In this document: positions 25,512 through 31,361 of the stretch, one piece after another
Layout: every line of letters begins with the position of its first letter
Position numbering within the stretch: the first letter of the stretch is position 1
Source: Massilia arenae
Lineage (GTDB): Bacteria; Pseudomonadota; Gammaproteobacteria; Burkholderiales; Burkholderiaceae_D
DNA: 64,000 bases
Assembly (NCBI RefSeq): GCF_008014745.1
Contig: NZ_VPFD01000004.1
Location: forward strand, 309,152-373,151
Direction of reading: 5' to 3'
The notes under the pieces: model-generated
The model's input: the letters and a program-made list of their open reading frames with translations, nothing else
Told to the model about the DNA's origin: nothing
The model's database searches: none
Made by a program: the position numbers and the translations under genes

Positions 25512-25718
25512 TTACGGACGTGGCGTTGGACGGTTCACTTCGTCCACGGCATCCTTCACGACTTCTTTCGCGTCGCCATAGGCTTCCTGGGTCTTGCCCT
25601 CAGCCTGGTTCGCCAGGCCCTTGGCCTGCTGTTCGGTGCTGCCCACCACTTTACCGGCGCCTTCTTGAATCTTGCCGCCGATGTCTTTCAGTTTGCCTTC
25701 GACTTGGTCTTTGTTCAT
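25512..25718 (-). CDS. CsbD family stress protein
   Basis: 68 residues, hydrophilic and without cysteine, starting at ATG 25718 after AAGGAGAACACC. MNKDQVEGKLKDIGGKIQEG and GSTEQQAKGLANQAEGKTQE are typical of CsbD, a small general-stress protein of unknown biochemical role. The longer in-frame extension upstream is not CsbD-like. A paralogue lies at 27102-27278, on the other side of the permease gene. Confidence 0.93.
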   Translation of the reverse strand: MNKDQVEGKLKDIGGKIQEGAGKVVGSTEQQAKGLANQAEGKTQEAYGDAKEVVKDAVDEVNRPTPRP

Positions 25719-25901
25719 GGTGTTCTCCTTGAGTAATGCATGCCTGAATGGCCATGCGATGGATACAGAATAGCCCTTTCGCGCCTGCTCATCTGTTAGC
25801 GCACGCACACAGTGATGCGACCCCATCCGCGCGACATTTTTATGGCTTAAATGCTAATCTTTTCTTGCAACGCGGCCCGCCGCTCAAGAAGAGAATCCTC
25901 C

Positions 25902-26999: not shown

Positions 27000-27057
27000 T
27001 CTGCCTCGCTTCTGGAATGCCGCGCCGTGGCATTCCAGAAAATGCCGGCCCAAAAAC

Positions 27058-27081
27058 AAAGCCGCGCGATTGCGCGGCTTT
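27058..27081. terminator. Bidirectional terminator between permease and second csbD
   Basis: AAAGCCGCGC and GCGCGGCTTT form a 10-bp stem with a GATT loop, with A and T runs on either side. A second perfect inverted repeat, TCTGGAATGCC/GGCATTCCAGA at 27011-27039, sits just before it. Confidence 0.8.
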
Positions 27082-27101
27082 GTCGTGGAGCAGAAGGCGG
27101 A

Positions 27102-27278
27102 TCAACGATTGCCTTTGGCGATTTCTTTCACGTCGCCGACTTTCTTCTGAACCTTGCCCTCAGCCTGGTTCGACAGGCCTTCGCTCTGTTGCTGGCGGCT
27201 GCCGACTGCTTCGCCGACCTTCTGCTGCACCTTGCCGCCGATTTCCTTCGCCTTGCCTTTGACTTGATCCTTGTTCAT
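27102..27278 (-). CDS. CsbD family stress protein, second copy
   Basis: A 58-residue frame from ATG 27278 to TGA 27102. The product starts MNKDQVKGKAKEIGGKVQQK and includes EGLSNQAEGKVQKKVGDVKE, clearly CsbD and paralogous to the protein at 25512-25718. An appropriately placed ribosome-binding site (GGAGA) precedes the start. Very lysine-rich, cytosolic, function unknown beyond stress association. Confidence 0.9.
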   Translation of the reverse strand: MNKDQVKGKAKEIGGKVQQKVGEAVGSRQQQSEGLSNQAEGKVQKKVGDVKEIAKGNR

Positions 27279-27350
27279 TGCAATCTCCTTGCCTGTTACG
27301 TGGATGAGCCTTAAGAATAGGATTAACTTCCAGGCGGTTCTGTTCGACGC

Positions 27351-27995
27351 TTAACAAACAGGCTTACGCCAGACGCTGGCCAGCCACGGTTGCTGGTCGC
27401 GCGGCAAGCCGGGCGGACGGTAGTAGTGATGCAGCGCCGTGAAGCCGGCCGCGAGCAGATAGCATTCCCACGTGGCGTAGTCGTAATAACTACCATAGCG
27501 CGCACCGTTCCAGCCTTCCTGGTTGTCGCCGCGTGGATTCGAACTGAACAGCACTCCGCCCGGCTTCAGTGCGGCGTGCAGATGTGTCAGCACCTGCGGC
27601 AAGGCGGCGCTCGGCACATGGAACAGCACGGCATTGGCAAAGATGCCATCAAAGGTCTCTTGAGGCAGATCAAGGTGCAGGAAATCCTGGTGCCATACCT
27701 CGCAGCCGCTGTAGTCGCGCGCCATGGCCACGAAGCGTTCGCTGCCGTCGACGCCGATGGCGCGGTGACCGAGCGCGCTGAAGGACTTGAGGTCGCGCCC
27801 CGGTCCGCAGCCCAGGTCGAGGATGGTGTAGGGCGCCGGGACCGCGATCGCGTCTAGCAGGGCGGCGATGTTCTGGCTGACGTCGTGGTCGATCGTGCCG
27901 GCGAAGAAGGATTCGGCATTATGCTCGTAATGCGCGAGCGTGCGGCGGGCGATGTCGTCGTGCGCGTCGTGCGTGTGATTGTTCTCATGATCCAT
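27351..27995 (-). CDS. Class I SAM-dependent methyltransferase
   Basis: 214 residues from ATG 27995. After a histidine-rich N terminus (MDHENNHTHDAHDD), TLAHYEHNAESFFAGTIDHD leads into motif I ILDLGCGPGRDLKSFSALGH, then FANAVLFHVPSAALPQVL and LKPGGVLFSSNPRGDNQEGW. This is a Methyltransf_11/25-type domain; the substrate is unknown. The upstream in-frame codons to 28037 lack support. Next to it on the minus strand is csbD; fliT diverges upstream. Confidence 0.85.
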   Translation of the reverse strand: MDHENNHTHDAHDDIARRTLAHYEHNAESFFAGTIDHDVSQNIAALLDAIAVPAPYTILDLGCGPGRDLKSFSALGHRAIGVDGSERFVAMARDYSGCEVWHQDFLHLDLPQETFDGIFANAVLFHVPSAALPQVLTHLHAALKPGGVLFSSNPRGDNQEGWNGARYGSYYDYATWECYLLAAGFTALHHYYRPPGLPRDQQPWLASVWRKPVC

Positions 27996-28134
27996 GACGA
28001 CAGTATGCCAGCTGGCGGCCCCAGAAAAAAAATTCAAAAAAAATTCAAAGAAACCCTAAAGTTCCCAAAATCCCTGCCGTAAAAGAACCAGACAACCGGC
28101 AATCCGGCCGGAGTTTCATTGTTTTGGTGGCAAC

Positions 28135-28416
28135 ATGAACGCAAACGAAGTCCTCTCGATGTACGAAAACCTGGCTGGCCTGACCCGTCAGATGTCGGAT
28201 GCCGCCAAGGCCGGAGACTGGAACGAGTTTGCCAACCTGAACGTCGAAGCCAAGGTCGAAGCGCGCAGCGCCACTGCCGGCATGCCGGCCCTGGAAGGCG
28301 CCCAGCGCCTTCGCAAGATCGACCTGCTCAAGCAGCTGATGGCCAACGACCGCGCGATCCGCGACGTGACCGAGCCATACGATGGCCAGCTGGAGCGCGC
28401 GCTGCAAGCGCACTGA
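28135..28416 (+). CDS. fliT: Flagellar FliT-like chaperone
   Basis: A 93-residue helical protein. MNANEVLSMYENLAGLTRQM and the late KQLMANDRAIRDVTEPYDGQ resemble betaproteobacterial FliT, the FliD export chaperone that also modulates FlhDC in enterobacteria. It ends shortly after the TEP segment, without the C-terminal tail seen in longer FliT proteins. No other flagellar operon genes are beside it, but a YjfB-type motility protein lies 4 kb away. The call rests on sequence pattern only. Confidence 0.7.
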   Translation: MNANEVLSMYENLAGLTRQMSDAAKAGDWNEFANLNVEAKVEARSATAGMPALEGAQRLRKIDLLKQLMANDRAIRDVTEPYDGQLERALQAH

Positions 28417-28436
28417 TTCCTGGCGAATCCTGAATC

Positions 28437-28461
28437 AAGGCACCTGCGGGTGCCTTTTTTG
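28437..28461 (+). terminator. fliT terminator
   Basis: AGGCACC and GGTGCCT pair around TGCG, followed by six T residues. Confidence 0.88.
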
Positions 28462-28507
28462 TTGCCGGAATAAGTAATAGTGGCGCGTGGGGCGGTCGAA
28501 GCGCCAA

Positions 28508-28755
28508 AGAAAAAAGCGCCCATCGGGCGCCTTGGCTGCCGCCGAGCCAGGGGCTCGACCGCGAATCGGGTGGAGGACGAACTCCAGCTATCTGCTGGCG
28601 TCGCCTCTTGCCGGTTGCTCCCGGCGTCCATTGCCACTGCAGGCAAGTGGACTGCTTCCGGTCACAGGCGTTTCATCAACGGTCGTCTGTTGTCGCGCCA
28701 CGCTATCGGTGGTGGCTGCGCAGACCCTGTGCCGTCTGTGACCTCGTCGATCACA
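28508..28755 (-). ncRNA. Candidate structured non-coding RNA
   Basis: About 250 bases with no convincing protein, bounded by a sigma70-like promoter and a strong terminator on the minus strand. The predicted RNA begins near 28755. A long-range stem joins GGTCACAG (28736-28743, minus sense) to CTGTGACC (28660-28667). Then come hairpins at 28626-28652 (GTCCA...TGGAC plus TTGCC/GGCAA), 28610-28625 (GCCGG/CCGGC), 28584-28598 (CCAGC/GCTGG) and 28543-28557 (CGAGCC/GGCTCG). It ends in GCGCCC-GAT-GGGCGC with six U residues (28510-28530). I do not recognise it as 6S, SRP, RNase P or a common riboswitch. Confidence 0.6.
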
Positions 28756-28760
28756 AATCC

Positions 28761-28789
28761 AGTATAACGCAAAATCAAACTTGTGTAGA
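28761..28789 (-). promoter_or_regulatory. Promoter of the candidate ncRNA
   Basis: On the minus strand TCTACA (28784-28789) and TATACT (28761-28766) are spaced by 17 bp. The -35 element lies inside the last codons of the FimV-like gene and the -10 just after its stop codon at 28775. Confidence 0.55.
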
Positions 28790-29920
28790 CATTTCCTGTT
28801 CAGCGTCGTCCAGCTTCGGCTCGACCGGCTCCTGGCTCGCTTTCTTGCGCCCGAAACGTTGGCGCAAGCGGGCCATCAAGGGCACGCCGGGCATGGGCTG
28901 GATCTGCCCTGCCCGCTTGCGACGACGAACCACCAGGATTGCAGCGCCGGCCAGCGCCAGCACGGCGCCAAGGCCGCCGGCGATCCAGCCCCAGGGCATC
29001 GACGCCTCCGGTTCGGGCGCCGGACGCCGCCGCGCCGGATGCGGCTTGCTCGGGTCGGCCGGCCGCGGCTTGCTGACGGCGGCCGGGCTGGCGCCCAACG
29101 CCACCTGCAATACTTTTACCTTGTCTTCCAGCTGGCCGATCTGTTCGCGCAACTGCGCATTCTTGTAATCCAGCGCGGCGCACACGGTCGAACGGTCGAC
29201 GTCGGGCGCAGGCGCGCAGGCGGCTGGGGTAGCCGGGGCAGCCAGCGGCAGGGGCAGTCCCTTGGGGGCCGGCTTCGGCTCGGCTGCAGGTGCTGGCTTG
29301 GCTTCCTGTTTCGGCTCCGACCTGGATTCGGGTTTGGGTTCCTGCGTCGGTGTCGGCGCGATCTTCGCGACCACCGGCTTGGTCGGCGGAGGCGGACGCG
29401 GCCTTGGCGGCGGCTTGGCCACGACGGGCGCGGGCGCGGGCGTGTCGACCACGACCGGCGCCGCGATCCTGACAGGCGCCGGCGGTGGCGGCGGATTCGG
29501 ATTCGGCGCCATCGACAAGGTCACCAGGCGAACGCCACGCTGGCCGCCATCGGCCAATTCCAGGTACAAATGCAGGCGGCTTGATTCGACCGGGGCCAGC
29601 GACGTCACGTGCAGGAACTGGCGGCCAGCACGCTGCGTCACAGTCATATTGAGTGTCGACAGCACGTGCGGCATACCGATATTGGCGCCGCGGTAGACGT
29701 TCGGGTTGGCCAGGCGCACCTGGACCGGAGTCGCGGGGGCGTCGAGCATGGTCAGTTCGATGTCGGCCGCGAGCTGCTGGCCGATATAGGAACGCACCTG
29801 CGCGTCGCCCAGTTCGGCTGCGCCAGCGGCGCCGGACAGCAGCGCGCATGTGATGATCAGGGGGAGGCGGCTAGCCATAAGGAATACCGAGAGTGAAGCC
29901 CAAGCATGATTAACGGACAT
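28775..29920 (-). CDS. FimV-like membrane protein
   Basis: About 380 residues. The N-terminal signal segment ([16 protein letters not shown]) is followed by [20 protein letters not shown], the FimV N-terminal domain start, and by a beta-rich region to about residue 135. A long proline/lysine-rich linker follows ([20 protein letters not shown]). Then come a short coiled coil ([20 protein letters not shown]), a second hydrophobic helix ([20 protein letters not shown]) and a basic cytosolic tail. FimV proteins scaffold polar pili and T2SS in pseudomonads; this one lacks a LysM motif and the TPR-like C terminus. Start ATG 29920 or 29878; the latter gives the cleaner signal peptide. Confidence 0.75.
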
Positions 29921-29966
29921 TGCGATAAACTCTTTAATCCCAGCCCCTTGCATAACAGGAATGTCT

Positions 29967-31361
29967 ATGGAAAACAGGATTGAGAAGGACAGCTTTGGCC
30001 CGATCGAGGTACCCGCCGATCGTCTATGGGGTGCGCAGACCCAGCGCTCGCTCCACCACTTCCACATCTCCACCGAGCGCATGGCGCCCGAGCTGGTCGC
30101 GGCGCTGGCCCAGGTCAAGCGCGCGGCGGCGGCGGTCAACCGCTCGCTCGGCAAGCTTTCCAGCGACAAGGCCGACGCCATCATCCGGGCTGCGGACGAA
30201 GTGCTCGATGGCCGCCATCCGGCCGAATTCCCGCTCGCCGTGTGGCAGACCGGCTCGGGCACGCAGAGCAATATGAACATGAACGAAGTGCTGGCCAACC
30301 GCGGCTCCGAGCTGCTGGGCGGCGAGCGCGGCGAAGGCCGCATGCTGCACCCGAACGACCACGTCAATATGGGCCAGTCGTCGAACGACATCTTCCCGAC
30401 CGCCATGCACGTGGCCGCCGCCTGGGCCCTGGCCAAAGAGGTACTACCGGCGCTGGCCCAGCTGCGCGGCACCCTGTTGCGCAAGTCGCGCGACTTCGAG
30501 CCGATCGTCAAGATCGGCCGCACCCACCTGCAAGATGCGACCCCGCTGACCCTGGGCCAGGAATTCTCCGGCTACGTGGCCCAGCTCGAGTATTCCGAGC
30601 AGCAGCTCAAGTCCGCCCTGCCCGGCCTGCTGCTGCTGGCCGCCGGCGGCACCGCCGTGGGCACCGGCCTGAACGCCCACCCCGAATTCGCCGCCCGCAT
30701 CGCGGCCGAGCTCGGCTCGCGCACCGGCCTGTCGTTCAAGACCGCGCCGAACAAGTTCATGGCCCTGGCCGCCCACGACGCCATGGTCGCCGCCCACGGC
30801 GCCTTCAAGACCCTGGCCACGGCCCTCATGAAGATCGCCAACGACGTGCGCTGGATGGCGTCCGGGCCCCGCTCCGGCCTGGGCGAGATCACCATCCCCG
30901 AGAACGAGCCGGGCAGCTCGATCATGCCGGGCAAGGTCAATCCGACCCAGTGCGAGGCCCTCACCATGCTGTGCTGCCAGGTGTTCGGCAACGACGTCGC
31001 CATCACGGTCGGCGGCTCCCAGGGCAATTTCGAGCTCAATGTGTTCAAGCCCATGATCGTGCACAACTTCCTGCAAAGCGCGCGCCTGCTGGCCGACGGC
31101 ATGCGCTCCTTCGACGAGCATTGCGCGCAGGGGATCGAGCCGAATCGCGCCCGCATCGGCGAGCTGATGGAGAAGTCGCTGATGCTGGTGACTGCACTGG
31201 CGCCGCACATCGGGTATGATCGCGCCGCGCAGATCGCCAAGAAGGCATCGACGGACGGCCTGACCTTGCGCCAGGCCGCCCTGCAAAGCGGCTTCGTCGA
31301 CGAACAGCAGTTCGACCAATGGATCGTGCCGATCGACATGACGCGTCCGGATCCAGCGTAA
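29967..31361 (+). CDS. fumC: Fumarate hydratase, class II
   Basis: Iron-independent fumarase interconverting fumarate and L-malate in the TCA cycle. About 464 residues. [20 protein letters not shown] starts the family domain; [55 protein letters not shown] and the signature [15 protein letters not shown] are all present. Start at ATG 29967 is preferred because AGGA lies six bases upstream; ATG 29961 directly abuts that site. It diverges from the FimV-like gene. Confidence 0.97.

Follow-up and report, generated by a model that had tools for sequence, protein, structure and literature searches.

A stretch of 64,000 nucleotides of the Massilia arenae genome (hereafter the window; contig NZ_VPFD01000004.1, positions 309,152 to 373,151, from an assembly of 5,974,536 bases in 80 contigs) carries a candidate non-coding RNA gene of about 248 nt on its minus strand, at 28507-28755. 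On comparison with homologous sequences, we regard the locus as almost certainly a real ncRNA gene, and that comparison supports its existence, its strand, its fold and its retention in the lineage. The best reading of these sequences is that the RNA represents a new lineage-specific structured family. We propose that it is a stand-alone gene whose folded core acts mainly through a protein, a statement to which, taken as a whole, we assign a probability of about 0.5. Along the RNA, a sigma-70-type promoter is followed by a 5' hairpin, a 163-nt core with seven helices, an AUUC tail and an intrinsic terminator.

The promoter, which the first-pass annotation had read as TCTACA-17-TATACT on the minus strand, is indeed present at 28789-28761, with its -35 box at 28789-28784 and its -10 box at 28766-28761, separated by a 17-nt spacer. 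It is one of two promoter-like sites between 28000 and 29960, where shuffled sequences contain 0.2 on average. A -10-like box (at least five of six positions matching) lies no more than 70 nt upstream in all 75 homologues that could be scored, as against 26.1 expected from shuffles, and its sequence is TATACT in 64 of them, TATGAT in nine, and TATAAT and TACAAT in one each. TCTACA is found 16-18 nt upstream of this box in 43 of the 75. Transcription would begin near 28755, as judged from the position of the -10 box, which is about where a 5' hairpin (28737-28755, minus strand) begins. Within the genus this hairpin has six pairs, five of them changed on both sides, with 88.5% of cells paired; it is shorter or absent in some relatives. 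The distance from the -10 box to the core is 7 to 43 nt in 74/75 homologues (it is 51 in locus L124, where the box call is doubtful), and the hairpin cannot fit in 11 of the 75, where a mere 7-14 nt separate the box from the core. These counts exclude loci L149, L164, L165 and L180, whose flanks are too short, as well as L121, which is cut at the end of its stretch.

At the other end of the gene, the terminator (28507-28533, minus strand) consists of a GC-rich hairpin at 28533-28513 followed by a U run, as originally annotated, and its stem sequence differs by clade, for example between GGCGCC-type and CCCGCG-type stems. A simple rule recovers a terminator in 61/75 homologues, against 1.35 expected from mononucleotide shuffles, and finds none in 14; among these misses, L137 has a mismatched hairpin and a U run that the rule rejects. 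An extra hairpin predicted just before the terminator (28538-28562, minus strand) is missing from many relatives. Comparison of homologues thus bears out, at the level of sequence, the earlier claim that the RNA has both its own promoter and its own terminator, with the -10 box retained in 75/75 and the terminator in 61/75.

The 249-nt strand has a predicted folding energy of -119.6 kcal/mol, compared with a mean of -95.3 (sd 4.8) for dinucleotide shuffles (z = -5.04), and none of 200 such shuffles is as stable. The conserved core occupies 163 nt of the minus strand, 28573-28735. A covariance model of this core, R1, scores it at 174.3 bits in the window, the only other match among those listed scoring 11.1 bits. 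Helices 1, 2 and 4 form a junction domain in which helix 3 caps helix 2 and helix 4 lies beside it, while helices 5, 6 and 7 follow as successive hairpins. Helix 1 (28734-28727 with 28667-28659) closes the junction; five of its seven pairs are changed on both sides within the genus, with 95.8% of cells paired, and three of seven across genera, with 89.2% paired. Three of the five model pairs of helix 2 (28725-28722 with 28688-28685) are changed on both sides, and helix 4 (28681-28678 with 28672-28669) is paired in 100% of cells, with UA-CG and CG-GC exchanges. Helix 3 (28720-28712 with 28701-28694) is near invariant, seven of its eight pairs being unchanged over 77 distinct rows, and it presents the conserved loop CANCGAURG.

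Beyond the junction lies the unpaired linker GAAGC (28654-28658), in which all five positions are conserved at 97% or more. It leads into the helix 5 hairpin (28626-28652), which varies in length and has six of nine pairs changed on both sides; into the near-invariant helix 6 hairpin, GCCGG-NNGCAA-CCGGC (28610-28625); and into helix 7 (28573-28607), a long hairpin with the loop AGAUA and 14 pairs, 97.4% of cells being paired and four pairs changed on both sides. The compact hairpins described in the first-pass annotation are present, and they are conserved among relatives. The AUUC tail that follows (28561-28572) is predicted to be mostly unpaired in the window's fold, and ATTC occurs within the first 22 nt past helix 7 in 63/78 homologues, as opposed to 3/78 for the following 22 nt (one locus dropped for a short flank, and L121 left out). 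The GAA of the linker, which hardly varies, could pair with the UUC of this tail, judging from the two motifs. Over the whole core, positions conserved at 97% or more comprise 53 of 104 paired and 22 of 62 unpaired ones, the latter in short patches (L121 and L180 left out).

An 8-bp long-range stem had also been described. It came without coordinates and is probably the pairing of GGUCACAG with CUGUGACC (28743-28736 with 28667-28660). This stem does exist in the window's sequence, but it is not conserved: across 59 relatives it pairs in 57.1% of cells, compared with 56.2% in shuffles, and it shows no covariation. Its 3' arm (CUGUGACC, 28667-28660) belongs instead to the conserved helix 1.

Several lines of comparison bear on whether the proposed pairs have been maintained. 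RNAalifold, applied to 59 relatives aligned by sequence alone (set A1, from which the duplicates L001, L026 and L031, the chance match L062, and L004, in which the script found no U run, were dropped; L021 and L028 had their 3' ends assigned manually), proposed 46 pairs, 18 of them changed on both sides. This proposal was refined by hand into a 52-pair structure, which is thus derived from the same sequences on which it was then scored. On 41 of the 59 relatives (set A2), 97.1% of cells are paired and pairs with two-sided changes number 21, compared with 8.6 in shuffles; versions of the structure slid along the alignment give 33-42% pairing and 5-10 such pairs. Across genera, with 77 distinct rows, there are 24 two-sided pairs covering 268 cells, compared with 12.7 and 77.0 in shuffled and at most 10 and 70 in slid controls, in an alignment that was fitted to the covariance model and so leans toward it. 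For 76 distinct cores aligned by MAFFT from sequence alone (L121 and L180 left out, identical cores merged), parsimony on a maximum-likelihood tree counts 56 compensatory events over 20 of 51 pairs, where slid controls give 1-8, together with 80 one-sided changes that keep the pair and 85 non-pair events, against 250-314 in the slid controls. Eight of the 15 strongest covarying column pairs, of 13,530 possible, fall within the structure. The excess of G-U cells (195) over A-C cells (19) suggests that it is the minus strand that folds. The first-pass annotation had proposed a search for compensatory changes among relatives, and they are found in the pair counts within and across genera as well as in the tree-event counts; a per-pair G-test with APC correction against 100 tree-simulated alignments gives no pair at E <= 0.05, a test that may have little power here on a tree with deep splits.

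The RNA is widely retained within the genus and narrowly distributed outside it. A blastn search with 291 nt matched 62/101 genomes at E <= 0.01, among them 60 of the 61 of the window's genus; two other-family genomes gave short matches of about 33-44 nt, which we treat as chance. The matched stretches in the other genomes of the genus, some of them partial, are 70-96% identical. The sole genome of these 61 in which neither blastn nor the model search detects a copy, G046, has a single FliT match, 34% identical and lying 833 bases short of the end of a contig (L251), and since this match is weak and so near the end, the locus may be missing or unassembled there. In 294 genomes of the family, R1 gives 80 matches at E <= 0.01, of which 79 are strong (88-190 bits), in five of 44 genera, namely the window's own and four more; G297, of genus g80, has a weak match of 25.5 bits. 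When R2 was run on 40 family genomes from 39 genera, nothing scored above 26.0 bits outside the known genera.

In a collection of 84,980 species with a single genome apiece, an exact degenerate pattern for helix 3 has 92 matching stretches. The contig titles of 86 name Massilia, Telluria, Duganella, Pseudoduganella, Rugamonas or Janthinobacterium, and what is left are 'Herbaspirillum sp. SJZ107' and five metagenome bins with broad labels. R1 was applied to 80 of the 92 stretches and matched 79; the exception is a bin labelled Deltaproteobacteria (L189), which scores 17.9 bits with R2 over helix 3 only and is treated as chance. Among 399 genomes of the order, R1 matched eight: five of the window's genus, its own included, one of the family, and G423 and G521. 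G423, assigned to family f3, gives the sole strong match outside the family (167.3 bits), on a metagenome contig only 11,859 bases long (JAQGMJ010000038.1) with fumC-, FimV- and FliT-like neighbours; for these reasons the contig is likely, if not proven, to be misplaced. In 369 genomes of the class, R2 matched only the window's own. The R1 searches of the family (294 genomes) and order (399) and the R2 search of the class (369) used stricter filters, under which weak matches are lost. Matches of 22-28 bits at L099, L118, L119, L214 and L215 look like chance. The match at L099 (1501-1630, 27.8 bits), which comes from another family of the order, looks like the linker plus helices 5 and 6, and its helix 6-like hairpin precedes a U run and could be a plain terminator. 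No copy of the RNA was found at the FliT-bearing loci L231 and L232. The exact pattern has no match in viral contigs, and a phage origin is rejected as far as that shows and no further.

In the window, the RNA lies between a gene for a FimV_N-domain protein (28775-29878, minus strand), upstream, and a convergent gene for a FliT-like protein (28135-28416, plus strand) that passes the Pfam cut-off and is accompanied by a terminator-like site at 28437-28456. The last codons of the FimV-like gene overlap the -35 box, in agreement with the earlier description of this gene as directly upstream with its end running into the promoter. The FimV_N domain is found in the upstream protein at six of seven loci tested, from several genera. 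At 30 loci of the genus (L002-L031) flanked by about 1.5 kb on either side, tblastn finds a FimV-like gene at 30, a FliT-like gene at 28 and fumC at 28; all three are found less often at loci with less flank. In some species the next gene on the same strand encodes an aminotransferase, with no terminator found between it and the RNA, so that the RNA's downstream neighbour is not always the same. In a Massilia aquatica-like group (L130, L148, L155, L181 and L191), a second TATACT box stands between the RNA and the aminotransferase gene, whose identity Pfam confirms at L148. The window's genome has two FliT-like genes, one beside the RNA and a second, 39% identical, on a different contig, and in a 60-genome sample all nine genomes with a strong RNA match have two FliT matches. 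Short minus-strand open reading frames lie at 25512-25826 and 27160-27357, the first of which we take to read like a CsbD-type stress protein. It is gene order alone that suggests the regulatory link to envelope or motility genes raised in the first-pass annotation.

No catalogued RNA accounts for these observations. Rfam 15 gives seven matches in the window region 27000-30500 and ten in 16 relatives, none at the gathering cut-off, so that the covariance search proposed with the first-pass annotation yields no credible family in either set. A sub-threshold Leu_leader appears on both strands at 27000-27149 (32.1 and 24.3 bits against a cut-off of 50) and is probably chance. Neither ARAGORN nor Rfam reports a tRNA or tmRNA, and 6S RNA (RF00013) has no match at the locus or in the 16 relatives, the genome's 6S RNA lying on another contig (72 bits, over the cut-off); the opinion that the RNA is neither tmRNA nor 6S RNA thus stands. 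6S RNA is likewise a stand-alone, heavily folded RNA of a similar size order, but its architecture is one long rod with a central bubble, whereas the Massilia RNA has a junction and three hairpins. RNAs of the CsrB/RsmZ type, which sequester CsrA through hairpins in a row with repeated GGA, share with it several hairpins in a row and some GGA triplets. We reject a CsrA sponge of this kind: CsrA (PF02599) has no match at E <= 0.001 in the window's genome, while being found in three of 14 control genomes, and GGA is not conserved in the loops, that of helix 6 being NNGCAA and the GGA at helix 7 being lost in some clades. The Burkholderia sRNA Bp2_287 (RF02424) is an intergenic sRNA from the same order, but its one match, in 1/16 relatives, scores 27.7 bits against a cut-off of 70 and lies on the opposite strand. 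A further parallel in kind is with the structured RNAs, confined to particular lineages and without an assigned function, that comparative genomics has brought to light, which are likewise defined by covariation without a known partner; the RNA differs from these in that no Rfam 15 family matches it at the cut-off. In the parts of the open-licence literature covered, including PMC6337395 and PMC3521395, no description of the RNA was found, which is not proof of absence, and none of six taxon names searched for is present in PMC8632094.

A protein-coding reading is rejected as well. No frame is open in all 78 homologues, the core lengths fall into all three classes modulo 3 (32, 23 and 23), and of 75 aligned homologues only one keeps the window's phase along more than 90% of its core (L121 and L180 left out of these counts). 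Stop-free frames do span the core, at least one in each of the 78, and in 71/78 the same antisense frame is open, a pattern that we read as an effect of GC-rich, conserved sequence. The view that the gap holds no plausible protein is upheld.

Two explanations would deny the RNA a gene of its own. GC-rich DNA folds easily, and a spacer with chance hairpins and no functional RNA would also be consistent with the absence of any single significant pair in the tree-simulated covariation test. The stability of the fold (z = -5.04), its conservation across genera, the excess of compensatory events over slid controls and the retention of promoter and terminator make this account very improbable. Barely more credible is the view that the RNA is an sRNA derived from the 3' UTR of the FimV-like gene, as first suggested, or the leader of a downstream gene. 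Its position behind a FimV_N gene at six of seven loci, and the same-strand aminotransferase gene that follows in some species with no terminator between, would fit such an origin. Against it stand the -10 box upstream in 75/75 homologues and the terminator downstream in 61/75, as well as the convergent orientation of the downstream gene in the window. In L064 and some other relatives, moreover, the FimV-like stop codon, as read, precedes the -10 box and the box is retained; the proposal of a 3'-UTR origin in the first-pass annotation is thus not supported, while its reading of the locus as a structured RNA with its own promoter and terminator, unassigned in Rfam at the cut-off, is sustained. 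The points that weigh against a stand-alone gene are the failure of the terminator rule in 14/75 homologues, the lack of a copy in G046 with a score of only 25.5 bits in G297, and the zero pairs significant in the tree-simulated test.

How the RNA acts is a closer matter. That it works mainly through a protein partner is a tentative proposal, which we would put at slightly below an even chance; we favor it because conservation falls mainly in helices and short loops. Weighing against it, no CsrA was detected in the genome, a ProQ-domain protein that is merely encoded there is no evidence of binding, and the AUUC tail could be an antisense seed. Almost as likely is an antisense sRNA that acts in trans, with ProQ or Hfq perhaps assisting, in which the AUUC tail or the helix 3 loop would pair with mRNAs and the core would protect and present the seed. 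The promoter and terminator are typical sRNA anatomy, the short unpaired tail and the loop CANCGAURG are conserved, and the genome encodes a ProQ-domain protein (84.4 bits), all of which would suit such a role; the conserved unpaired stretches, on the other hand, are short.

Based on the above data, we propose that the RNA would be transcribed from the promoter at 28789-28761, on the minus strand, as far as its own terminator, the end of which is near 28510. Function would reside in the folded core (28735-28573) with its conserved loops, probably together with the AUUC tail, whereas the 5' hairpin, the pre-terminator hairpin and the terminator sequence would be replaceable parts. The product may be pictured as a folded and probably protein-bound RNA, a scaffold or a decoy, rather than one acting through a long open antisense seed.

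A bolder and, in our judgment, unlikely extension is that this undescribed family, restricted to the Massilia-Duganella-Janthinobacterium group, is the core of a ribonucleoprotein whose global role, specific to the lineage, would resemble that of 6S RNA in kind. Lastly, the RNA is present once in nearly every sampled genome of the genus and in related genera, with some parts that hardly vary and with no catalogued family matched; the covariance model can be used to annotate it in these genomes, and the RNA is a clear target for experiment.
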